Source: Deltaproteobacteria bacterium (GTDB taxonomy: Bacteria > Desulfobacterota > RBG-13-43-22). Taken from it: a stretch of 42,817 nucleotides of DNA. The notes below the pieces were generated by a model. The model did no database searches. It was given only the letters and a program-made list of their open reading frames with translations, and was not told the origin of the DNA. Where the stretch lies: positions 1-42,817 of the forward strand of contig JACRCK010000285.1 of assembly GCA_016219065.1 (NCBI GenBank). The letters are read 5' to 3'. Both the position numbers and the translations under genes were made by a program. Shown piece after piece: positions 3,733 through 15,880 of this stretch. The stretch's first letter is position 1. Each line of letters begins with the position of its first letter.

Positions 3733-4239
3733 ATGCGACCATATTTTGAACCACTGGAGAAAAAAGCCGTTGAACTGGGCGCGGCCAAGGCTAAATTGAT
3801 CGAAACCGGCCAAATCGTTTTCGATCCCCGCTCCTTTCTCAAATGCCGGTTCGGCTGCAACCGCTGGGGAAAGTTCTGGACCTGCCCGCCCAACATGAGT
3901 ATTTCCCGGGAGCTTTTCATGGAGGCCTTCGCCCGCTACCGCTGGGGTCTGGTGATCCAGACCACGACACCTAAAGGAGGCCAAAGCGTGGCCCTGGCCG
4001 TGGAAAAGGAGGCCATGCTGTCCTTCAACTGTTCCTATCCCCTGGCCCTGGTCCTCTGCGTCGAGTGCGACGAATGCGCCTTTCCCAATCCCTGTAATTT
4101 TCCCCATCTGGCCCGGCCCTCGATGGACGCCTACGGCATGGACATCGGCAAGACCATCGAGCCCCTGGGCTTCAAGGTGGAGTTCGATAAGGATGGAAAA
4201 TTGTTGCCGGCCTGGTATGGTATGGTATTATTGGATTAA
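3733..4239 (+). CDS. DUF2284 predicted metal-binding protein
   Basis: A 168-aa protein matching DUF2284, a family of small cysteine-rich, predicted metal-binding proteins common in anaerobes. The first cysteine group is C38, C42 and C51 in CRFGCNRWGKFWTC followed by PPN. The second is C109, C112, C115 and C121 in CVECDECAFPNPC, then a FPHLARPSMDAYG-like segment. The spacing suggests one or two iron-sulfur or zinc sites. GGAGG lies about 6 nt before the ATG. It is cytosolic, with no signal peptide or membrane segment. Biochemical function is unknown. It stands alone between repeat-filled gaps, so neighbours give little help. Confidence 0.85.
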   Translation: MRPYFEPLEKKAVELGAAKAKLIETGQIVFDPRSFLKCRFGCNRWGKFWTCPPNMSISRELFMEAFARYRWGLVIQTTTPKGGQSVALAVEKEAMLSFNCSYPLALVLCVECDECAFPNPCNFPHLARPSMDAYGMDIGKTIEPLGFKVEFDKDGKLLPAWYGMVLLD

Positions 4240-4630: not shown

Positions 4631-4939
4631 ATGGAAATCTCGGAAAATCAATTCGAAGCCGAAGTGCGCCAGTCGGAGAAACCCGTGCTGGTCTACTTCC
4701 ATCTGCCCAGTTGCGCCAAATGCGCCACCTGGAGTAACGTGGCCGAGGGCTTGGTGAAGGACACCGAAGATAAAGTCAAGTTGGTCAAGTTGAATGTGGC
4801 CGGCAATCAGGGGCTGGCCAAGGCCCTGAAAATTCAAAGCGCCCCCAGTTTCCTGGTATATCGGGACGGCGAGGAAGTGGAGCGCTTTACGGGGGATCGG
4901 GTCAATTACGAGGATATATACGGGTATTTTCAAAAATAA
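4631..4939 (+). CDS. Small thioredoxin-like protein (CxxC)
   Basis: A 102-aa single thioredoxin fold with redox motif C28-A-K-C31 preceded by LPS. This differs from the canonical WCGPC. A cis-proline region (SAPSFLVY, about 71-78) and the C-terminal G-D/E-V-x-R-F strand are present. AGGAACAG lies just upstream of the ATG. The protein is cytosolic and probably a dithiol-disulfide reductant or a variant with a dedicated partner. It lies about 360 bases upstream of the selenoprotein operon, which also encodes a thioredoxin reductase, but a terminator-like hairpin follows it, so co-transcription is unlikely. Confidence 0.88.
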   Translation: MEISENQFEAEVRQSEKPVLVYFHLPSCAKCATWSNVAEGLVKDTEDKVKLVKLNVAGNQGLAKALKIQSAPSFLVYRDGEEVERFTGDRVNYEDIYGYFQK

Positions 4940-5186: not shown

Positions 5187-5221
5187 ATGGTTGAATTAAT
5201 CAACGCCCTCAATTAAATTCC

Positions 5222-5270
5222 TTGACAAAATAAATTGCCAAGATATATATCTTATGAGTAAGGGCTCATA
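5222..5270 (+). promoter_or_regulatory. Predicted sigma-70 promoter with ArsR-type palindromic operators
   Basis: TTGACA at 5222-5227 is a consensus -35 box, with a TATATA/TATATC-like -10 at 5244-5251. The -10 lies inside a perfect 14-bp palindrome AAGATATATATCTT (5240-5253). A second inverted repeat, TATGAG-N6-CTCATA, follows at 5253-5270. Palindromes over the -10 region are typical operators of ArsR/SmtB repressors, and the first gene encodes one, so autoregulation is likely. Promoter and operator calls are by eye. Confidence 0.65.
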
Positions 5271-5297
5271 TAAACTGATGCTAATGTCTGTGGGCAT

Positions 5298-5630
5298 ATG
5301 GAAATTGAACAACTTGCAAGTATTTTCAAAGTATTAGGTGAATCCAACCGCCTTGCTATTGTCTTAGCCCTTGGTAAAAATTCCTGTTCGGTAACTGAAA
5401 TCATAAAGGCTACCGGGTTGTCCCAAACACTTGTTTCTTTTCATTTGCGGACTCTCCGCAACTCAGAAATTGTCAAAACGAATAGGAATGGACCTTTTAT
5501 TTACTACCGACTTTCTGAACCTGCCATCATTGATATTCTTGGCCAAATTTCCAAACTATTCAATTTTAACTACCCGGACATAGGAGAACTTAAGCCCGCC
5601 CCAAATGTGAACCTGAGAGAAAAATTATAA
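5298..5630 (+). CDS. ArsR/SmtB-family transcriptional regulator
   Basis: A 110-aa winged-helix protein of the ArsR family. Helix-turn-helix residues LSQTLVSFHLRTLRNSEIV lie at about 41-59, followed by a wing RNGPFIYYRL. Classical As(III) sensors carry ELCVCDL in helix 3. Here the matching segment is NSCSVTEI with a single cysteine, C30, so the inducer may not be arsenite or may be bound differently. It begins an operon that continues through six or seven genes with short gaps. The promoter just upstream holds two inverted repeats. Expected role: derepress the operon when a metal(loid) or thiol-reactive signal binds. The AT-rich codon usage contrasts with the GC-rich flanks. Confidence 0.88.
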   Translation: MEIEQLASIFKVLGESNRLAIVLALGKNSCSVTEIIKATGLSQTLVSFHLRTLRNSEIVKTNRNGPFIYYRLSEPAIIDILGQISKLFNFNYPDIGELKPAPNVNLREKL

Positions 5631-5650
5631 TTCATTAGATGAGGTGTGTA

Positions 5651-6127
5651 ATGGATACAAAAATCACAAACCTTCTAGCTGAATTACCCCAAGCTTCAAA
5701 AAAAGATGTCCTTATTAATCTCGTGGAACTTTTATTGCGAGACCTGAATGATTCCGAAAAGAAAAACTTAATTCAGCAAGTTCTTTTAGGTCATCAGCAA
5801 AACCAAAAGCTGGCTGAAATGGTAGAACATTGAATTGCCGAGTGTACGGATTCCGGGGTGAATCCGGTAGAGATGAGCAAGGAAGTACTTACGGCAATAA
5901 GTCATTCATTTGAACTGGCTACCTATTCGACTCCGGAATTGAAAGGGCTCTTTAATGACTGGGTGAGGGAGATCGAACGGGAAGTCCTCGAATTTTTAAA
6001 AGACAAGGATAAAGTGGACCCGGTTGAAGTGGAAAAACAATTTCGATTGGATCGGGAAAGCGTCATCTTCCTCCTGAGCAAACTGGCCCGAGAAGGAAAA
6101 ATCAATATTAAAGCCTCGGGAGCTTGA
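5651..6127 (+). CDS. Candidate selenoprotein, helical, U-x3-C motif, C-terminal winged-helix-like
   Basis: Two open frames lie in the same reading frame, separated only by TGA at 5831-5833. Read as Sec, they give 158 aa with U61 in HUIAEC (U61, C65). A perfect 7-bp hairpin with a CGGGGT loop lies 14-33 nt after the UGA, as expected for a bacterial SECIS. The downstream half has no convincing Shine-Dalgarno of its own. Residues 1-60 are amphipathic helices rich in Leu/Lys/Glu. Residues ~115-150 resemble a winged helix (VEVEKQFRLDRESVIFLLSK). The start is ATG 5651 with GAGGTG at 5641-5646, rather than the in-frame ATG at 5639. I do not recognise the family. It could be a metal sensor or scaffold. 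If the UGA is a true stop, there are two small proteins of 60 and about 89 aa. Confidence 0.68.
5847..5866 (+). promoter_or_regulatory. SECIS-like hairpin for UGA 5831
   Basis: CGGATTC / GAATCCG form a perfect 7-bp stem around the loop CGGGGT. The loop lies at +21 to +26 from the end of the UGA. A G-rich apical loop at this distance matches the E. coli fdhF SECIS geometry. Confidence 0.65.
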
Positions 6128-6199
6128 AATAAAATGAGGCAACCTTCTCTTTTGATATATTTAGTGTTTTTAAACCGTTAACCGGAAAGGAGAGTCACC

Positions 6200-6550
6200 A
6201 TGGCTAATTTTGTCTTTGTTCTGAGTAAGGATGAGGTTGAGCCGGCTACCAGATGTTTTCAGCTGGCAAAGATCGCTCATTCGAAGGGACACGCGGTAAA
6301 TATTTTCTTACTAGGTGATGGTGTATTGTGGGCCAATTCAAAACGGGATTTTAAGGCAAAAACGATTACCGGGGATTGCCCAGACGACTATTTCCAGTAT
6401 CTTGTAGAAAAGGAAGTCGCGGTTGGGGTTTGACCTCCTTGTGCAAACGCCCGTCAGGTTGACGAGGCCAAGTTTTTTACCAATATGGCGCTTGATGGAG
6501 CCCCCCATCTAATCGATCTCGCCGCTGAAGCCAAGATATTTAGTTTTTAA
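6200..6550 (+). CDS. DsrE-like selenoprotein with UxxC motif
   Basis: Reading TGA at 6431-6433 as Sec joins a 77-codon frame to a further 38 residues, giving 116 aa. The N-terminal part (FVLSKDEVEPATRCFQLAKI, then HSKGHAVNIFLLGDGV) is typical of DsrE/DsrF/YchN-fold sulfur-relay proteins. The family's conserved cysteine region falls exactly on the UGA: GVUPPCANAR, with U78 and C81 forming UxxC. Truncation at UGA would remove this active site and the last strand. A hairpin with a GGT loop sits 24-26 nt downstream. AAAGGAG precedes the ATG. DsrE-like selenoproteins are an established prokaryotic family. Role inferred: carrying reactive sulfur or selenium, or a metal(loid), between operon partners. 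Confidence 0.87.
6449..6468 (+). promoter_or_regulatory. SECIS-like hairpin for UGA 6431
   Basis: GCCCGTCA pairs with TGACG-A-GGC (8 bp with one bulged A) around the loop GGT. The loop lies at +24 to +26 from the end of the UGA, and the GGU matches the apical sequence known from fdhF. Confidence 0.7.
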
Positions 6551-6581
6551 TAATAAGGGCATTACGTCAGAGAGAAATTCA

Positions 6582-7811
6582 ATGTCAATGAATTATTTGA
6601 AACTTACCGTTGTTCACAGTGGTGACCCCAATTGAAAGCCCTGTGAGCTGGCGCTGGATGCGGCAAAAAAAATTAAAAATAGATTTAAAGACCAAATTAT
6701 ATTTAAAGAGCTTACGCTTGAATCGGATGAAGGAAAGGCCTTTAAGGTTACGACCTCGACGAATGTTTTCATCAATAACCAATTGCTCCCGATACCAGTT
6801 TGGTTGGACCAGGGTAAATTCGAGCATTACATCGAAGGACTTCTTGGTGCCGATAGCAGGGTAGAAAAGGATATTACCGAACGGCAAATGTATGATGTCG
6901 TCATTGTTGGGGGCGGTCCAGCCGGACTTAGCGCCGGTATCTATTGTGCCCGGGCCAGGTTAAAAACCGTTTTATTGGAAGGGGCGAATCTGGGCGGCCA
7001 GGTTACCACAACGGATAAGATTGAAAATTATCCGGGATTTATCGAAATTAGTGGGATGGAGTTGATCGGAAATATGGAAAAACAAGCCAGACGATCCGGT
7101 CTGGAGATAAAAACCTTCACTAAAGTCCATAAGCTAACGTTAGAAGGGCCAAACCGAAAAGTTTGTGCTGGCGACGATATTTATCCATGCAAAACAATCA
7201 TATTGGCAGGCGGTCAAAAGAGATCCGGACTAAATCTGGCCGGAGAAGATGGATTTATTGGTAAAGGCGTTTCTTATTGTGCGGTTTGTGACGCCAATTT
7301 CTTTAAAGAAAAAAGAGTCGCGGTCGTCGGCGGAGGAGATACCGCCATTGAAGATGCCAATTATCTGAGCAAGTTCGCCTCAAAAGTTTTTGTAATACAC
7401 CGGCGCAGCGAATTACGGGCCACTAAGATTTTACAGGAGAGTGCGTTTTGCAACAATAAAATATCTATTTTATGGAACCATACTGTGGAAGAGATAATTG
7501 GAAATAACCACCTCGAAAGTATGATTATAAAAGACGTTAAAACTGGGGAAAATACTAAACTTGAGGTGGATGGCCTATTTGTCGCCATTGGCTCACACCC
7601 GCACACCGATATTTTTAAAAATATCTTCGCAATGGATGAGCAGGGATACATCAAGGTCGACGATAAAATGAGAACCTCTATCCCAGGGATTTTTGCAGCG
7701 GGAGATATTCGATTGACTCCTCTTAGACAAATTGCCACGGCGGTTGGAGATGGAGCCATCGCTGCCATTTCCGCTGAGAGGTATATCAATGAAACGGCCT
7801 CAATTTGTTGA
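6582..7811 (+). CDS. Selenoprotein: thioredoxin-fold (UxxC) fused to thioredoxin reductase
   Basis: Reading TGA 6633-6635 as Sec gives one 409-aa protein. Residues 1-100 form a thioredoxin/glutaredoxin-like domain with redox motif U18-K-P-C21 and a STNVFINNQLLP segment. Residues ~103-409 form a complete FAD-dependent thioredoxin reductase: GGGPAG near 110, CAVC at 233-236, a second GGGDTA nucleotide motif, and a C-terminal PGIFAAGDI. Without read-through, translation would have to start at a TTG (6783) inside the first domain, with no ribosome binding site. A CGC-TGGAT-GCG hairpin lies 20-24 nt downstream of the UGA. Fusing electron donor and carrier would pass NAD(P)H electrons directly to a Sec centre, and then probably to operon partners. 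The upstream gene ends 31 bases before; the Shine-Dalgarno (AGAGAG) is weak. Confidence 0.87.
6649..6665 (+). promoter_or_regulatory. SECIS-like hairpin for UGA 6633
   Basis: CGC (6652-6654) pairs with GCG (6660-6662) around the loop TGGAT. Two more pairs lie beyond a G-G mismatch. The loop is at +20 to +24. It is weaker than its neighbours but has the same TGGAT loop as 9346-9350 and 10694-10698. Confidence 0.5.
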
Positions 7812-7925
7812 ATCGGACCAGATCCCTATACCGAAGTGGAGAACGACTACCGATCTCAAAAGGGTGAAGCGTCCATTATTGTAATGACCTTCTGATGAGG
7901 GCTTAAAAAGAAGGGGGGTGATTAA

Positions 7926-8135
7926 ATGAGCAAAGAAACAAAGATCCAGATTATTGCCAATACGCACAATTGAATACCTATTATCAAGATAGCCCTGGAA
8001 GGGACCGCAGGAGTTGAAAAAGCCGAGGTAGACATTCAGTATGCCACCGTATGGCATGATCCTGAAAAAGTATTGGTCGATCAATTGGTTTCGATCATTA
8101 CCAAAGCCGGCAAAGATTGCATACCCGTATCTTAG
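7926..8135 (+). CDS. HMA-domain selenoprotein (TxxU metallochaperone-like)
   Basis: A 69-aa single HMA (heavy-metal-associated) domain, hidden from ordinary gene calling by TGA at 7971-7973. The strong Shine-Dalgarno AAGGGGGG is followed by ATG at 7926. The sequence T13-H-N-U16 is followed by IKIALEGTAGVEKAEVD and a WHDPEKV...IITKAGKD tail, the standard pattern of MerP, CopZ and P-ATPase metal-binding domains. By spacing to the conserved Ala-Leu helix, U16 takes the place of the second Cys of CxxC, and Thr13 the first. A hairpin with a TGGAA loop sits 23-27 nt downstream. MerP-like selenoproteins are known in deltaproteobacteria. A single Sec would favour soft ions such as Hg(II) or a metal-alkyl species; the metal is not known. 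Confidence 0.82.
7992..8005 (+). promoter_or_regulatory. SECIS-like hairpin for UGA 7971
   Basis: CCC (7993-7995) pairs with GGG (8001-8003) around TGGAA, and G7992 can pair C8005 with A8004 bulged. The loop is at +23 to +27, the same offset as at 9346 and 10694. The stem is short. Confidence 0.5.
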
Positions 8136-8196
8136 TTATTTTTTATCCAATCAATTTTAATTATTTCTATTTAAATGAAAATAGAAAGGGATAAAA

Positions 8197-9246
8197 ATGA
8201 GCATACCAGAAGACAAGATGACTCCCAAAGAGAGAATCGGATCTTTGCTGCAGGGTAAACCGTTCGATAGAACTCCATGCGTCCCTGTGATCTTGAACGG
8301 GTGTGCCAGGGCGGCAGGCTATACCATAAAGGAAATGACCCTCGATGGAGAAAAATTCGGAAAAGCAAATGTGGCGACCTACAAAAAGTATCGGCAAGAC
8401 ATGATCACCCTGCTGGATGCCACTGGTACAACAGCCGAGGCCGCCGGCACCAAGTTGAATTATCCGGAGGAGATGGCTGCTTATGTGGAGACGCCGCTTA
8501 TTCAGTTCAGGGATGATTTAAAGAAACTGCGTCCCCTGGATCCGACTAAGGATGGCCGGTTAAATAATTATCTGATCGCGACGGAATATTGCATTTCTGA
8601 AGTCGGAAATGAAGTATTTGTGGGTGTTTTATTCGCCGGTCCTTTCACCACGGCCGCCTGCCTGCGAGGTACCGAAGACCTTCTAAAGGATCTATTTAAG
8701 GACAAAGAACTTGTTCATCAACTGATGAGATGGTCGGTCGATAATACCATACCCTTTTTAGATGAAGCCATAAAAAGGGGCGGTGTTCCCGTCTTATGCG
8801 AACCGGTGGGGACGGCTAGTATTTTAAGTGAACAATCGTTTACGGAATTCGTTGAGCCCTATATTAAAGAACTTAATGATCATGTCAAATCAAAAAGTCT
8901 TCCGACTCTTAACCATATCTGTGGCGACTCCACGGCTATCATAAAGCCATGGCTGAGAACCGGGCCGATGGTCATAAGTATTGATAGGGTGGATATCGGT
9001 GAGATATCAAAAACATATGGCACTCAAGCCGGAATCATGGGAAATGTTAATCCTGGCAAGACCCTGTATATGGGTTCACCTGATGCTGTGGATGCGGAAG
9101 TCAAAGATATAATAGAAAAAGCAGGGAAAAATCCCGCTGGCTTTGTTCTGGCGTCCGGTTGTGAAGTTCCCATCGAAACCCGACCTGAGAACATTTTCGC
9201 TATGATGAATGGCGCCCGAAAATACGGGCAACAGCCGCTACCGTAA
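8197..9246 (+). CDS. MtaA/UroD-family corrinoid methyltransferase
   Basis: A 349-aa TIM-barrel protein of the uroporphyrinogen decarboxylase superfamily, on the methyltransferase (MtaA/MtbA/CmuA) branch rather than HemE. The zinc ligands of that branch are present: H240-x-C242 in LNHICGD and C322 in ASGCEVP. The C-terminal PIETRPENIFAM is typical. Zinc in such enzymes activates a thiolate that accepts or gives a methyl group from a methylated corrinoid. It is embedded in the selenoprotein operon (61 bases after one HMA gene, 14 before the other), so its methyl donor or acceptor may be bound by the Sec-HMA proteins. AAAGGG precedes the ATG. No corrinoid protein is encoded in the operon. The substrate is unknown. 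It has no in-frame UGA. Confidence 0.9.
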   Translation: MSIPEDKMTPKERIGSLLQGKPFDRTPCVPVILNGCARAAGYTIKEMTLDGEKFGKANVATYKKYRQDMITLLDATGTTAEAAGTKLNYPEEMAAYVETPLIQFRDDLKKLRPLDPTKDGRLNNYLIATEYCISEVGNEVFVGVLFAGPFTTAACLRGTEDLLKDLFKDKELVHQLMRWSVDNTIPFLDEAIKRGGVPVLCEPVGTASILSEQSFTEFVEPYIKELNDHVKSKSLPTLNHICGDSTAIIKPWLRTGPMVISIDRVDIGEISKTYGTQAGIMGNVNPGKTLYMGSPDAVDAEVKDIIEKAGKNPAGFVLASGCEVPIETRPENIFAMMNGARKYGQQPLP

Positions 9247-9260
9247 GAAGGAGTTGATAA

Positions 9261-9497
9261 ATGGACAGCGCGAATATGAAAGAAGTTATTATTAAAATAC
9301 CAAGCATGCAATGAACGACTTGAGAAGTGATGGTCAACGTGGCTCTGGATGAGTCACCAGGAGTTTTGGCATATGAAACGAGTTTGGCTAAGCAGCAAAC
9401 CAAGGTTAAATTTACTCCTAATGAGATTGATGAAGAAACGTTAATGGAAAACATTAAAAAACGGACGGGATATACCAACCTTTTTGTTCAGAATTAA
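9261..9497 (+). CDS. HMA-domain protein with UxxU motif (two Sec)
   Basis: AAGGAG at 9248-9253 and ATG 9261 open a 78-aa frame with two TGA codons, 9312-9314 and 9321-9323. Read as Sec they give PSM-Q-U18-T-T-U21-E, exactly where HMA domains carry GMxCxxC. The rest fits HMA: VALDESPGVLAYETSLAKQQ, V-x-F-T-P-N-E, then a MENIKKRTGY C-terminal helix. Both metal ligands would thus be selenolates. A 7-bp hairpin with a TGGAT loop lies 23-27 nt after the second UGA. The gene is 14 nt after the MtaA-like gene. Expected cytosolic role: very tight soft-metal(loid) binding or a diselenide redox centre. Conventional annotation would miss it completely. Two UGA in one short gene with the domain intact on both sides argues against a pseudogene. 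Confidence 0.85.
9339..9357 (+). promoter_or_regulatory. SECIS-like hairpin for UGA 9312/9321
   Basis: GTGGCTC pairs with GAGTCAC (7 bp, one G-U) around the loop TGGAT. The loop is at +23 to +27 from the second UGA and +32 to +36 from the first, so one element may serve both codons. Confidence 0.72.
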
Positions 9498-9505
9498 ATT
9501 TAGGG

Positions 9506-9823
9506 ATGACAAATATGAGGGAACGCCAAGTCTACGTGGAAATCGTGGCGAAGAAGAAAGGCTGCATGCTCTGCGACCTGGCCCTGGCCATCCTGGAGGA
9601 AATCGCTCCGGAATTCGAGCCCGGGGTGCTGACCTGGGAAGTGGTCGATATGGGCTCCCGGGAAGGATTGCTGCGCCATGAAGAACTGACCCGCCTCTGC
9701 GGAAGGAAACCGGCGGTTCCCTCTATCGTAATCAACGAAAAAATAGCCTTTGATAACATTCCGGAAATGGGCGATCTGACCGAGGCGGTCAATAAAGCCT
9801 GGGAAGAGACCGGGGGGATTTAG
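9506..9823 (+). CDS. Thioredoxin/glutaredoxin-like protein (CxxC)
   Basis: A 105-aa thioredoxin-fold protein with C20-M-L-C23 after a short first strand (VEIVAKKKG), a helix DLALAILEEI, and a proline-containing PAVPSIVINEK region, as in glutaredoxin-like redox proteins. It starts 8 nt after the UxxU gene, so it is probably the last gene of the operon, but its codon usage is GC-rich like the flanks rather than AT-rich like the preceding genes. An alternative ATG lies at 9515. It may accept electrons from the Sec thioredoxin reductase. Function is inferred from fold and position only. Confidence 0.8.
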   Translation: MTNMRERQVYVEIVAKKKGCMLCDLALAILEEIAPEFEPGVLTWEVVDMGSREGLLRHEELTRLCGRKPAVPSIVINEKIAFDNIPEMGDLTEAVNKAWEETGGI

Positions 9824-9835
9824 TACGAAAATACC

Positions 9836-9993
9836 GTTCGGCGTTGAGCGTTCGGCGTTCGGCGTAATAGTTTAATACAAATACCAAGCCGAAATGTCGC
9901 AGTTTGTTTTTAATGTAGGGGAGGGGTTCATCCCCACCCGCCCTGAGTCCTCCAAGTTAGCTAGAGGCGGGGGGATATAAAATCCCCCCCTAC
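9836..9993. repeat. Intergenic repeats with a GTAGGGG inverted repeat
   Basis: TTCGGCGTTGAGCGTTCGGC units (9836-9863) are followed by an imperfect inverted repeat from GTAGGGGAGGGG (9915) to CCCCCCCTAC (9993). Related GTAGGG blocks occur near 4305 and 16019. The 239-base gap 9824-10062 separates the operon from the ArsM-like gene; I see no gene in it. Confidence 0.6.
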
Positions 9994-10062
9994 GAAAAAC
10001 TCCAATCGGGCATAATTTTCATGCTTCGCGGTAAGTGACATACCATTGAATGAGGTTTAAAC

Positions 10063-11181
10063 ATGGAATTGCTCCTTTCCCCGGAAGACAAGTTCAAAAT
10101 CGAATCCGGCATCCGGGAAAAGTACGCCAAGGTGGCCGCGAGTCCGGAAGGTTTGTTTAAATATCCTACCGGACGGGCCGGCCTGGAGGCTCTGGGGTAT
10201 GACCCGGAGATCCTGAAGACCCTGCCGAAAAGCGCACTGGATTCTTTCTGCGGCGTGGGAAATCCTTTCTCCCTGGGTCCTATAAACGGTGGAGAAACCG
10301 TGCTCGACATCGGCAGCGGCGGGGGACTGGACAGCCTGGTGGCCGCCCGGCTGGTCGGCCCCGGGGGCAAGGTGGTGGGTCTGGACCTGTCGCCGGAGAT
10401 GGTGGCCCGGGCTTATGAAAACCTGAAACAGACGGACCTGGCCAATGTGGCTTTTCAGGAATTTTCCGGCGAAGCCCTGCCTTTCCCGGACGGGAGTTTC
10501 GACGTGGTCGTCTCCAACGGCGTTTTTAATTTAATTCCCAACAAAGGACGAATGCTGCAGGAGGCCTGCCGGGTGTTGAAACCGGGAGGACGACTCCTGA
10601 TCGCCGACCAGGTGCTGGCCGGGGTCTTGACGAAAAACGTTTCGGAGCGAATCGACAGTTGGTTCCGCTGAGAAGGCGGGGCCATACCGGGAATGGATTT
10701 CCTGGCGTTGATGAAAAAGGCGGGTTTCGAGGGCACCGAGGCGGTAGGGGAAACCGGATTCAACAGTTCGCCGACAACCCGGGGAATGTTATTTCGGGCG
10801 CTGCGAGGCGCAGGAGGAAAAAGCATGGCGGTCGAAGAGGGTTTGAACAAATATCGGGAATTTTTTGAGACGGCCTACGCCGACGGGGCCATCAACCGCA
10901 AGATGAAACATCTCATCGCCCTGGGGGCCTCGCTGGGGGCGGGGTGCGAACCCTGAACGGCTTACTGCCTTGCGGTCGCAAGGGATTTGGGCGCCACCGA
11001 AGAAGAGGTCAAGGAAGTCCTCTCCATCGCCATGACGGTCGGGGCCACGAAGACCCAGTTGCTCCAGCAGCGGGCCCTGGATTCGCTGGCCCCCAAGCCG
11101 CCGGTCGAATTAAAACCGGCCCCTGGATTGACCACCCTGGAAACGGTGAGCGGCCCCCCGCCGGGTTCGCCGTTTACCTGA
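10063..11181 (+). CDS. ArsM-like methyltransferase fused to AhpD/CMD domain, two Sec
   Basis: Three open frames share one reading frame, broken only by TGA at 10669-10671 and 10954-10956. Read as Sec they give 372 aa. Residues ~1-250 are a class I SAM methyltransferase like arsenite methyltransferase ArsM: SFCGVGNPF with C63, SAM motif VLDIGSGGGLD, then SWFR-U203-EGGAIP at the site of the conserved ArsM catalytic cysteine, and a TGFNSSPTTRG tail. Residues ~265-345 are an AhpD/carboxymuconolactone-decarboxylase-type domain, GAGCEP-U298-TAYC, where CxxC becomes C295-x-x-U298. Each UGA has a strong hairpin downstream. GAGG precedes the ATG. Proposed role: methylation of As(III) or another metalloid with a built-in redox module. 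The convergent thioredoxin reductase could supply electrons. No third ArsM cysteine is seen, so the substrate is uncertain. Confidence 0.88.
10687..10705 (+). promoter_or_regulatory. SECIS-like hairpin for UGA 10669
   Basis: CCGGGAA pairs with TTCCTGG (7 bp, one G-U) around the loop TGGAT. The stem begins at +16 and the loop lies at +23 to +27 from the end of the UGA, the same geometry as the UxxU gene. Confidence 0.72.
10968..10983 (+). promoter_or_regulatory. SECIS-like hairpin for UGA 10954
   Basis: CCTTGC pairs perfectly with GCAAGG around the tetraloop GGTC, at +18 to +21 from the UGA. The apical GGUC matches the SelB-binding loop sequence of E. coli fdhF, though it is a few bases closer to the UGA. 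Confidence 0.72.
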
Positions 11182-12643: not shown

Positions 12644-14329
12644 ATGTCGAAGATGTTTAAGGACGACCAAATCCAGAAGGACCGGGACGGAAAAGCCGTT
12701 TGGGAGAAGGAACTGCAGGGGCGTTTGGCCAAAAATCCCGAGTGGAAGAAACGCTTTTCCACCGTTTCCGACCTGGAAATCAAGAGCATCTATACCCCGG
12801 AGGATATTCAGGACCTGGACTTCGAGCAGGACCTGGGCTATCCCTGCTTTTACCCCTATACCCGGGGAGTCCAGTTGTCCATGTACCGCGGGCGCCTCTG
12901 GACCATGCGGATGTTCGCCGGTCTCGGTTCAGCCGCAGATACCAATAAACGGTTCCACTATCTGGTGGACCAGGGTCAGACGGGCTTAAGCGTGGCCTTC
13001 GACATGCCCACCCTGATGGGTTATGACACGGATTCTCCCAAGGCCCGCGGCGAGATGGGCAAATGCGGTGTTGCCATCGACACTTTGAAAGACATGGAAA
13101 ACCTGTTTGCCGGGCTGCCCATCGACCGCATCACCACCTCCATGACCATCAACCCGCCGGCCTCGGTGGTTTGGGCCATGTATATCGCCATGGCCGAAAA
13201 CCGGGGGATTGCGCGCAGCAAGATCGGCGGGACCATCCAGAATGACATGCTCAAGGAGTTCGCGGCCCAGAAGACCTTCATGTGCCCCATCCGGCCCTCC
13301 CTGCGCCTGGTGACCGACACGGTGGAATTCGGGACCAAGGAAGTCCCCCGCTGGAACACCATCAGCATCAGCGGCTACCATATCCGGGAGGCGGGCGCCA
13401 CGGCCGTTCAGGAACTGGCCTTCACCCTGGCGGACGGGCTGGCCTACGTGGAAGACGCCCTGAAACGGGGCTTGAACGTCGACGACTTCGCCCCGCGCCT
13501 GTCTTTTTTCTTCGATGCCCATATCGATTTTTTTGAAGAGATCGCCAAGTTCCGCGCGGCCCGCCGCATGTGGGCCCGGTTCATGAAGGAGCGTTTTCAA
13601 GCCCAGAACTGGCGGTCCCTGTGGCTGCGCTTCCATACCCAGACGGCCGGTTGTTCGTTGACCGCCCAGCAGCCTTACAACAACGTGATTCGCACCGCCC
13701 TGGAGGCCCTCTCGGCGGTGCTGGGCGGGACCCAGTCGCTGCATACCAATTCCCTGGACGAGGTGCTGGCCTTGCCGACCGAGCAGGCCGCCACCATAGC
13801 CCTGCGGACCCAGCAGATCCTGGCCGAAGAATCCGGGGTCATCAACACGATCGATCCCCTGGCCGGTTCCTATTTTATCGAGGCCCTCACCAACGAGCTG
13901 GAGGAGAAGGCCATGGAATATATCCGCAAGATCGATGAAATGGGCGGCATGGTAGAGGCCTTGGACCGGCATTTCCCGCAGATGGAAATCGCCGAGGCCG
14001 CCTACCAGTATCAGCGGCAACTGGACCGCCAGGAGAAGATCATGGTGGGCGTCAACAAGTATCAAACCCAGGAAACACTCCGGCCCGAGGTGCTGCGGAT
14101 CGACCCGGCACTGGAGGAGACCCAGATCGCTCGCACCAACGAGATAAAAAACAGCCGCAACAATGCCAAGGTCCGGGAATGTCTGGAACGTCTCGGAGAG
14201 TCCTGCGTCAACAATCACAATGTCATGGAACCCCTGATCGAGGCCGTGAAAGAACACGCCACCCTCCAGGAGTGCTGCGACGTCTACCGGCAGGTCTTCG
14301 GGACTTACAGAGACCCGGGGATTTTTTAA
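12644..14329 (+). CDS. icmA: B12-dependent acyl-CoA mutase large subunit, isobutyryl-CoA mutase-like
   Basis: A 561-aa TIM-barrel catalytic subunit of the methylmalonyl-CoA mutase superfamily, without a fused B12 domain. The N-terminal YPYTRGVQLSMYRGRLWT and SVAFDMPTLMGYDTD segments are diagnostic. Aligned by eye with P. shermanii methylmalonyl-CoA mutase, the offset is a constant +2: Tyr89 becomes F91, Arg207 becomes Q209 and His244 is kept as H246. Phe/Gln is the isobutyryl-CoA mutase pair; Arg is needed to hold the methylmalonyl carboxylate. The 2-hydroxyisobutyryl-CoA mutase Asp is replaced by A118. The likely reaction is n-butyryl-CoA/isobutyryl-CoA interconversion. B12-subunit and MeaB genes follow. 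GAGGG lies 8 nt before the ATG. Related branched acyl-CoA substrates remain possible. Confidence 0.88.
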   Translation: MSKMFKDDQIQKDRDGKAVWEKELQGRLAKNPEWKKRFSTVSDLEIKSIYTPEDIQDLDFEQDLGYPCFYPYTRGVQLSMYRGRLWTMRMFAGLGSAADTNKRFHYLVDQGQTGLSVAFDMPTLMGYDTDSPKARGEMGKCGVAIDTLKDMENLFAGLPIDRITTSMTINPPASVVWAMYIAMAENRGIARSKIGGTIQNDMLKEFAAQKTFMCPIRPSLRLVTDTVEFGTKEVPRWNTISISGYHIREAGATAVQELAFTLADGLAYVEDALKRGLNVDDFAPRLSFFFDAHIDFFEEIAKFRAARRMWARFMKERFQAQNWRSLWLRFHTQTAGCSLTAQQPYNNVIRTALEALSAVLGGTQSLHTNSLDEVLALPTEQAATIALRTQQILAEESGVINTIDPLAGSYFIEALTNELEEKAMEYIRKIDEMGGMVEALDRHFPQMEIAEAAYQYQRQLDRQEKIMVGVNKYQTQETLRPEVLRIDPALEETQIARTNEIKNSRNNAKVRECLERLGESCVNNHNVMEPLIEAVKEHATLQECCDVYRQVFGTYRDPGIF

Positions 14330-14334
14330 AAAAC

Positions 14335-14475
14335 GAACATCCAACATCGAACATTCAACATCAAACATCGAATGTTCGGCGTTCGGCGGAGAAGCTTACC
14401 AAGCTCACCCGGGCTCAGACCGAATTTCGAATTTTGGTCATTTGAATTTGTTTCGGATTTCGGATTTCGGATTTA
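14335..14475. repeat. Both AT-rich repeat families between icmA and icmB
   Basis: CATCCAACATCGAACATTC units (14335-14386) are followed by an inverted copy of the AATTCGAAATCCGAA family (14422-14475, as AATTTGTTTCGGATTTCGG). The repeats lie inside an operon, so they are transcribed and probably tolerated without effect. Confidence 0.7.
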
Positions 14476-14510
14476 GCCAATAATTGGCTTGTGGATTCTT
14501 AGGAGGTTAT

Positions 14511-14918
14511 ATGGTAGGTGAAAGGAAATTACGCGTCTTAGTCGGCAAACCGGGGCTGGACGGGCACGATCGCGGCTCCCGGATCATTGCCCGGACTTTT
14601 CGAGATGCCGGCTTTGAAGTGGTCTACACCGGGCTGCACCAGACCCCTGAGGAGATCGTGCAGGCGGCCATCCAGGAAGATGTGGACTTGATCGGACTTT
14701 CCAGCCTGGCCGGCGCCCACCTCTACCTTTTTCAACGGGTCGCCGAATTGCTGAAAGAGAAGGGGGCCGAAGACATCGCCCTGATCGGCGGCGGCATTTT
14801 CCCCGAAGAAGATATCCCCCGGCTGAAGGAACTGGGCTACCAGGAAATATTTATTCCCGGTGAAACGCTGGACCATATCGTCGACTGGGTTCAGGCCAAC
14901 GTAAAACCGAGAGCCTGA
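14511..14918 (+). CDS. icmB: Cobalamin-binding subunit of acyl-CoA mutase
   Basis: A 135-aa B12-binding (Rossmann-like) domain, the small subunit partner of the preceding mutase. The cobalt-ligating DxHxxG motif is D-G-H-D-R-G at about residues 17-22. GLSSLAG and IGGGIFP supply the other parts of the base-off/His-on site. The start is ATG 14511 with AGGAGG at 14501-14506; an upstream in-frame start at 14484 lacks a ribosome binding site. Its stop overlaps the meaB start (TGATG). Length and organisation match stand-alone small subunits of isobutyryl-CoA mutase and related split mutases. Confidence 0.9.
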
Positions 14919-15880
14919 TGGACTGGACCGAGAAAATACTGGCGGGCGACGTGCGCACCGTGGCTCGTCTCATCCGGGACATCGACGACAACCGGCCCGA
15001 GGCCCGCGGCATTCTGAAAGAATTGTATCCTCATACCGGCCGGGCCTATGTCGTGGGGATTACCGGGTCGCCCGGGGTGGGCAAGAGCACCCTGGTGGAC
15101 CGGATGATCCAGCATTTGCGGGGGCAGGGGAAAACCGTAGGCGTGCTGGCCGTGGACCCTACCAGCCCTTTCAGCGGCGGAGCGATCTTAGGAGACCGCA
15201 TCCGCATGCAGCGGCACAGCACCGACGAAGGGGTCTTTATCCGCAGCCTGGCCACGCGGGGCCATTTCGGCGGTCTGACTCCCTCCACCCGCGGGGCCAT
15301 CGCCGTATTGGACGCCATGGGCAAGGACTATATCCTGGTGGAAACCGTCGGCGTGGGCCAGGATGAGGTGGAAATCGTCCGGGCCGCCCACACCACCCTG
15401 ATCGTGCTGATCCCGGGCATGGGTGACGATATCCAGGCCATCAAGGCCGGCATCCTGGAGGCCGGCGATGTCTTCGTCATCAACAAAGCGGACCGGGAAG
15501 GGGCGGAAAAGACCCGCCAGGAATTGATGATGATGATCGAGATGGACAAAGGCCGCAAGGCCAAAGCCGGCTGGACGTCCACCATCTTTATGACCGAAGC
15601 CGTGCGCAATGAGGGGGTCGAGACCCTGATGGCCGGCATTCAGGCGCACCGCGAATTCCTGTTTAAAAAAGAGCCGGCCCATTGCATCGATTTTGAGCAT
15701 CAGCGGGCCCGCATGGAACTTTTTGACCTGGTCAAGCAGGACGTCATTCAGGTTATCATGGAGCGCCTGACCGAGAGCGGCCGGTGGGATCATTATCTCC
15801 AGGAGCTGGTGCAGAAAAAAAGCGACCCCTATACCATTTCCGAGGAAATCGTGGCCCGCTATTTAAAGGACCAAGTTTAG
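14918..15880 (+). CDS. meaB: MeaB/ArgK-family G-protein chaperone of B12-dependent mutase
   Basis: A 320-aa G3E GTPase that gates adenosylcobalamin loading and protects the mutase from inactivation. Walker A GSPGVGKST is at residues 50-58, and the switch region contains DPTSPF and GDRIRM typical of MeaB. The base-recognition motif is NKAD, near residue 190. A C-terminal dimerisation helix follows. It is translationally coupled to the B12-subunit gene by a 1-nt TGATG overlap, which supports a mutase complex of three proteins. Full length for the family. A hairpin repeat overlaps the stop codon. Confidence 0.95.
   Translation: MDWTEKILAGDVRTVARLIRDIDDNRPEARGILKELYPHTGRAYVVGITGSPGVGKSTLVDRMIQHLRGQGKTVGVLAVDPTSPFSGGAILGDRIRMQRHSTDEGVFIRSLATRGHFGGLTPSTRGAIAVLDAMGKDYILVETVGVGQDEVEIVRAAHTTLIVLIPGMGDDIQAIKAGILEAGDVFVINKADREGAEKTRQELMMMIEMDKGRKAKAGWTSTIFMTEAVRNEGVETLMAGIQAHREFLFKKEPAHCIDFEHQRARMELFDLVKQDVIQVIMERLTESGRWDHYLQELVQKKSDPYTISEEIVARYLKDQV

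Follow-up and report, generated by a model that had tools for sequence, protein, structure and literature searches.

A gene island in a contig of a sediment-type Deltaproteobacteria bacterium (JACRCK010000285.1, assembly GCA_016219065.1) surrounds an MtaA-like methyltransferase with genes that read as selenoproteins. The window, by which we mean the whole 42,817-nucleotide stretch analysed, holds this island between about 5.2 and 11.2 kb. The island is a variant of the three selenoprotein operon (TSO), unusual in its TsoX::thioredoxin reductase (TrxR) fusion, its HMA1-UroD-HMA2 block and a stretch of low G+C content (GC) that was probably imported. Its features are listed below, with the UGA codons that we read as selenocysteine (Sec).

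5220–9500, no strand: low-GC block, probably horizontally acquired (GC 0.43 against 0.575)
5298–5630, + strand: TsoR-like ArsR/SmtB regulator (NF045707, 80 bits, cutoff 115; NF033788, over cutoff)
5651–6127, + strand: TsoA, LULAXC-motif selenoprotein with one Sec (UGA 5831; NF045695, E 3e-29; shared UGA column)
6200–6550, + strand: DsrE-like selenoprotein, UxxC (UGA 6431; PF02635, 68.6 bits; Sec/Cys exchange)
6582–7811, + strand: TsoX (HSGDPNU, UGA 6633) fused to thioredoxin reductase, stop UGA 7809 (NF045809, TIGR01292)
7926–8135, + strand: HMA1, HMA-type selenoprotein, TxxU (UGA 7971; NF041115, 33 bits; PF00403, E 0.003)
8197–9246, + strand: UroD-superfamily MtaA-like (Mlp-type) methyltransferase, zinc ligands H240, C242 and C322 (PF01208, E 2e-66)
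9261–9497, + strand: HMA2, HMA-type diselenol protein, UxxU (UGA 9312 and 9321; PF00403, 34.8 bits, over cutoff)
9506–9823, + strand: HUIPC-type thioredoxin-like protein, here CMLC and lacking Sec (NF047660, 59.5 bits; native GC, adjoining the block)
10063–11181, + strand: ArsM-like methyltransferase/AhpD fusion with two Sec (UGA 10669 and 10954; NF041537, 626 bits, cutoff 510; native GC)

Eight in-frame UGA codons in six of these genes are best read as Sec, a reading that several lines of comparison support. An initial annotation, made by a model from the letters alone, had placed them at 5831, 6431, 6633, 7971, 9312, 9321, 10669 and 10954, and we confirmed all eight: no TAA or TAG precedes the end of any of the six frames, and homology crosses the sites. 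Family-model matches span the codon in TsoA (residues 13–149, U61), TsoX (7–85, U18), DsrE (Pfam, 4–112, U78), HMA2 (11–72, U18 and U21) and the ArsM-AhpD fusion (ArsM_AhpD_UU, 1–341, U203 and U298). HMA1 is the weakest case, its matches beginning at U16 or immediately ahead of it; in a second genome, the HMA1 ortholog (77%) has a UGA at the same position. DsrE homologues, the query counted, carry UGA at the site in 12 and Cys in 13, with an invariant partner Cys, a pattern above chance. The TsoA UGA column is common to 34–35 of the 40 loci compared, the remainder being a paralogue lineage that lacks that half of the protein.

Signals for Sec insertion agree with this reading. A hairpin with a GG loop and 6 bp or more, at the position of a bacterial Sec insertion sequence (bSECIS), follows four of the eight UGAs but only 8% of the window's 635 other TGAs, an enrichment that lends support without amounting to proof. 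Of the Sec machinery that the initial annotation had proposed to look for, the genome encodes SelB, scoring over its curated cutoff, and a tRNA-Sec whose anticodon is tca. That the UGAs are instead ordinary stops or errors, marking split or decayed genes, is hardly credible; the sequence does come from a metagenome-assembled genome (MAG), and a TsoA fragment in the second genome is truncated, but identical UGA positions recur in that genome and across families, Sec exchanges with Cys, and the machinery is in place. Three further in-frame TGAs, at 6125, 7809 and 11179, are best read as true stops. We considered 7809 as a ninth Sec, forming a Cys-Sec pair at the TrxR C-terminus, and ruled it out, as the extension is conserved neither in relatives nor in the second genome.

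The upstream genes form a TSO module. The initial annotation had left the protein carrying UGA 5831 in an unknown family; it is TsoA, although its NF045695 match (102 bits, E 3e-29) falls short of the 170-bit equivalog cutoff. Its motif here is HUIAEC, giving a TsoR-TsoA pair with Sec in a LULAxC-type motif, and because both proteins score below their equivalog cutoffs, we read the pair as a divergent branch of TSO. At the two loci with the closest TsoA relatives (L047 and L048), the genes after TsoR-TsoA encode a double-Sec protein of the DUF5714 family (MbdU-like, below the NF045648 cutoff) and TsoX as a protein of its own. Five other loci (L049, L050, L061, L062 and L084) represent a TsoA lineage without Sec: there, ArsR genes are paired with TsoA-like proteins whose N-termini are Met-rich and whose Sec half is missing. 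TsoA is predicted to be all-helical (model pLDDT 84) with a winged-helix-like C-terminal part; its fold matches are of winged helix-turn-helix type, none of them significant, and a regulatory role is only a suggestion.

DsrE, TsoX and TrxR are ordinary neighbours of TsoA. At almost every locus in the sampled same-phylum genomes, an ArsR gene immediately precedes TsoA, and TsoX, a Sec DsrE or TsoB/TsoC-like genes often follow; TrxR sometimes precedes. Here TsoX scores 94 bits against a cutoff of 52, which places it among HSGNPxU domains, and the TrxR domain scores 384 against 343. The family-model scan found no match to TsoB or TsoC among the operon proteins, a scan of a genome-contig collection with the single TsoA protein as query gave no match, and neither did a search of plasmids for DsrE. 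Two canonical TSO operons (TsoB/DsbD loci L064 and L065) lie on other contigs of the same genome. Judged by eye, TauE/SafE-looking permease-like proteins follow the TSO genes at two other loci (L053 and L071), and phosphate-selective-porin-like outer membrane proteins do so at two (L048 and L086).

The methyltransferase has the zinc site of methyltransferases that act on sulfur or selenium. Aligned with MtaA (4ay7), it places its zinc ligands at the HICG and GC motifs, and these ligands are invariant among its relatives. It scores 119 bits against the MtaA equivalog cutoff of 400 and 111 against 600 for MtbA, far below both. It belongs to the UroD family and has the His-Cys-Cys ligands of Mlp/MtaA-like proteins. 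Relatives at 34–45% are mostly Mlps whose gene clusters also encode corrinoid proteins and activases. Kountz and Balskus (PMC10418091) report a His-Cys-Cys site as the mark of S/Se enzymes. In our tree the protein pairs with its ortholog from the second genome, followed by an Armatimonadetes protein, beside a group that gene order and scores suggest is Mlp2; the joining fork is weakly resolved. The operon parts named in the initial annotation held up: an ArsR-type regulator, two Sec-HMA proteins, DsrE, a TrxR fusion and an MtaA-like UroD, whose thiolate-type zinc ligands are all intact.

A sister operon ties the UroD gene to both HMA genes and to a corrinoid protein. Scanning GTDB genomes with a UroD alignment yielded one true ortholog (79%), in a Syntrophaceae MAG (locus L146). 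The initial annotation suggested seeking conserved neighbourhoods of UroD with the HMA and DsrE genes; the UroD-HMA part is present in this one orthologous operon, whose gene order agrees with that of the window: TsoX::TrxR (65%), a CobW GTPase, HMA1, UroD, HMA2 (66%), a corrinoid protein, the truncated TsoA fragment and ArsM-AhpD (61%), with UroD between the two HMA genes. The TsoX::TrxR fusion recurs there, and the UGAs of TsoX, HMA1, HMA2 (both) and ArsM-AhpD (both) are retained. Its corrinoid protein is TIGR02370-like with two B12-binding domains. Because the HMA-UroD-HMA linkage is independently conserved in that second genome, it is real and tied to corrinoid chemistry. A third HMA-UroD operon did not appear in the genomes searched, including the order around the sister operon, nor did a search of 385 genomes of the phylum for HMA2 return an additional Sec homologue. 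A second UxxU HMA selenoprotein lies at a contig edge in the window's own genome (L144; G000 C167, 3–554), where it apparently runs on into a CopZ-like iron-sulfur domain with another in-frame UGA.

The methyl-transfer half of the initial annotation's proposal gains weight because the sole operon ortholog carries a cognate-type corrinoid protein; the soft metal(loid) or organometal substrate that it also proposed keeps the standing of a suggestion, and methyl-selenium fits about as well because the nearest characterised relatives of UroD act there. Cl-Mlp2 moves a methyl group between methylcobalamin and selenide, and an M. voltae Mlp2 is required for dimethyl-selenide use (PMC10418091). It is quite possible, if on the unlikely side, that the operon serves methyl-selenium salvage or detoxification, with an Mlp2-like UroD passing methyl groups from (di)methyl-selenide or methyl-selenol on to a corrinoid protein while Sec-rich carriers and their reductant handle the selenide set free. 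These Mlp2 activities, the corrinoid gene of the sister operon and the placement of UroD in a tree branch holding genes of Mlp2-like mlp gene clusters (MGCs), its fork weakly resolved, all favour it. Yet the operon has no Mlp3, reductive activase or selD, known HMA domains bind metals, and UroD falls outside the Mlp2-like clade proper. Between a methyl-selenium substrate and an organometal or metalloid one, the contest is close.

The downstream ArsM-AhpD gene is a poor guide to substrate. It is a real double selenoprotein, as the initial annotation held, and lies downstream of the operon; it also has native GC, sits outside the imported block and lacks most of the arsenic cysteines. Compared with solved ArsM structures, its ArsM-like domain has Gly in place of the SNC(V) Cys, Val in place of the GCG(N) Cys, where a Cys lies two positions before, and Sec in place of the third Cys, and so departs from the three-cysteine pattern. 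These three cysteines we take to be the arsenic-binding site. An arsenic role is therefore uncertain and the gene is poor evidence for one. We accordingly doubt that it belongs to the acquired operon or speaks for arsenic, though the sister operon has the gene nearby.

Plain resistance to soft metals (Hg, Ag, Cu) or metalloids is a further candidate reading. In that scheme ArsR control, Sec-HMA sequestration and TrxR reduction would do the work and UroD would be incidental. The ArsR-type regulator, HMA proteins near MerP/CopZ models and the ArsM-like neighbour speak for it. We consider it improbable, as the operon lacks an efflux pump, MerA and MerB, in both genomes the HMA genes flank UroD, which equals them in conservation, and the ArsM-like gene is without canonical arsenite cysteines.

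Part of the island was probably acquired by horizontal transfer. GC is 0.43 at 5220–9500 and 0.575 elsewhere in the window, and third-position GC is 0.36–0.48 in block genes against 0.69–0.80 in neighbouring genes; on both measures the block looks imported. The HUIPC-type thioredoxin gene (third-position GC 0.69) and ArsM-AhpD have native composition and lie beyond the block. We sought repeats and a tRNA at the island ends and found none convincing; an Rfam scan gave no match at gathering score, and a promoter scan did no better than on shuffles. The source MAG comprises 399 contigs with an estimated contamination of 8.7%, but a binning error is unlikely because the block is flanked left and right by native sequence within a single contig.

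The imported block may have joined a Sec DsrE locus that was already present. Upstream of the island, the window encodes a DUF2284-like protein (3733–4239) and a thioredoxin (4631–4939). DUF2284, Sec DsrE and thioredoxin genes are adjacent in a genome of the same family (G004, L231), and the gene adjoining DsrE there matches the HUIPC-type thioredoxin at 75%. With a DUF2284-like gene upstream of the block and a thioredoxin gene downstream, insertion at such a locus would fit; the DsrE gene itself has low third-position GC in both genomes. Farther along, inspection by eye of 12644–15880 suggests methylmalonyl-CoA mutase-like subunits together with a GTPase-like protein of the MeaB type, B12-dependent but unrelated to the UroD operon.

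Our preferred reading, held tentatively, is that a horizontally acquired TSO operon variant uses its Sec proteins to support a corrinoid-linked methyltransferase whose substrate is a soft element (Se, S, Hg or As). TsoR, an ArsR-type repressor, would sense a toxicant or the thiol state, and TsoA, with its winged-helix-like end, may be a redox- or metal-sensing partner. TrxR and NADPH would reduce the fused TsoX Sec-thioredoxin domain, which in turn would keep the selenols of DsrE, HMA1 and HMA2 reduced. HMA2 (UxxU) and HMA1 (TxxU) could then hold or deliver the soft element through selenolates, and UroD, through its His-Cys-Cys zinc site, would transfer methyl between this element and a corrinoid protein. 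The sister operon encodes such a protein in cis; here it may be supplied by a homologue on another contig (58%), the best in this genome. Both the substrate and the direction of transfer we infer.

Several observations weigh against this proposal. The UroD/HMA part is common to only two genomes, and the function of the TSO part may be unrelated to it. The window operon has no corrinoid gene in cis, so that the partner here would need to work in trans, and the homologue in question sits in an unrelated-looking cluster alongside further UroDs and an activase-like protein. The first HMA cysteine is missing from HMA1, which is therefore not a standard chelator. An assembly chimera of the low-GC block and native flanks is conceivable, and the proposal draws on sequence and predictions from a MAG with the contamination given above.

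A stronger version of the proposal is more doubtful. It posits a distinct corrinoid methyltransferase system in which UroD would exchange methyl groups between a corrinoid protein and a substrate carried by a UxxU domain of heavy-metal type, the soft element held by protein selenolates that NADPH-driven TsoX-TrxR recycles. If true, it would make or break organometal or methyl-selenium bonds anaerobically, unlike MerB, HgcAB and ArsM. TSO operons are widespread in sampled genomes of the phylum, with no function assigned in the literature examined, and this variant joins TSO parts to a kind of methyltransferase assayed on selenide and to a corrinoid protein, offering concrete, testable chemistry. 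Were the substrate a metal(loid), the operon would represent a Sec-based anaerobic organometal pathway.

The island combines known families and is not a categorically new kind of system. We rejected that idea because TsoR, TsoA, TsoX, the UxxU HMA, the HUIPC thioredoxin and ArsM-AhpD-UU are catalogued NCBIfam families; most of these appear among the predicted selenoproteins of a 2026 review that also describes the Tso operon (PMC13188914), whose original paper is Haft and Tolstoy 2025 (ref 64 of PMC13188914; models NF045695, NF045707 and NF045809). Like TSO, the island has TsoR and TsoA in order with the conserved Sec, and the TsoX Sec domain; unlike it, TsoB and TsoC are missing, TsoX is fused to TrxR, HMA-UroD-HMA is added, and TsoA and TsoR fall below equivalog cutoffs. 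NF041115 and the MerP/CopZ chaperones share the HMA family and Sec at HMA cysteine positions, whereas the window proteins score below the NF041115 cutoff and HMA1 retains one Sec. ArsM-AhpD is a full-length member of NF041537, the arsenite methyltransferase/AhpD selenoproteins, over cutoff with both Sec, but departs from solved ArsM enzymes at the arsenic-binding cysteines. The selenocysteine-assisted organometallic (SAO) system (ref 63 of PMC13188914) likewise groups several selenoproteins per operon with a suspected organometal role, but the window proteins match no Sao family (SaoL, SaoB, SaoC, SaoP, SaoT and SaoX in the family-model scan). Type 1 MGCs, which encode MtaA-like proteins (Kountz and Balskus, PMC10418091), share the Mlp-kind UroD, its His-Cys-Cys site and, in the sister operon, the corrinoid protein. 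Such clusters combine at least two Mlps with a corrinoid protein and a reductive activase (Ram); the sister operon adds the corrinoid protein with no Ram seen, and the window has a single UroD, no Mlp3 and no reductive activase, with Sec-HMA and TSO genes in their place.

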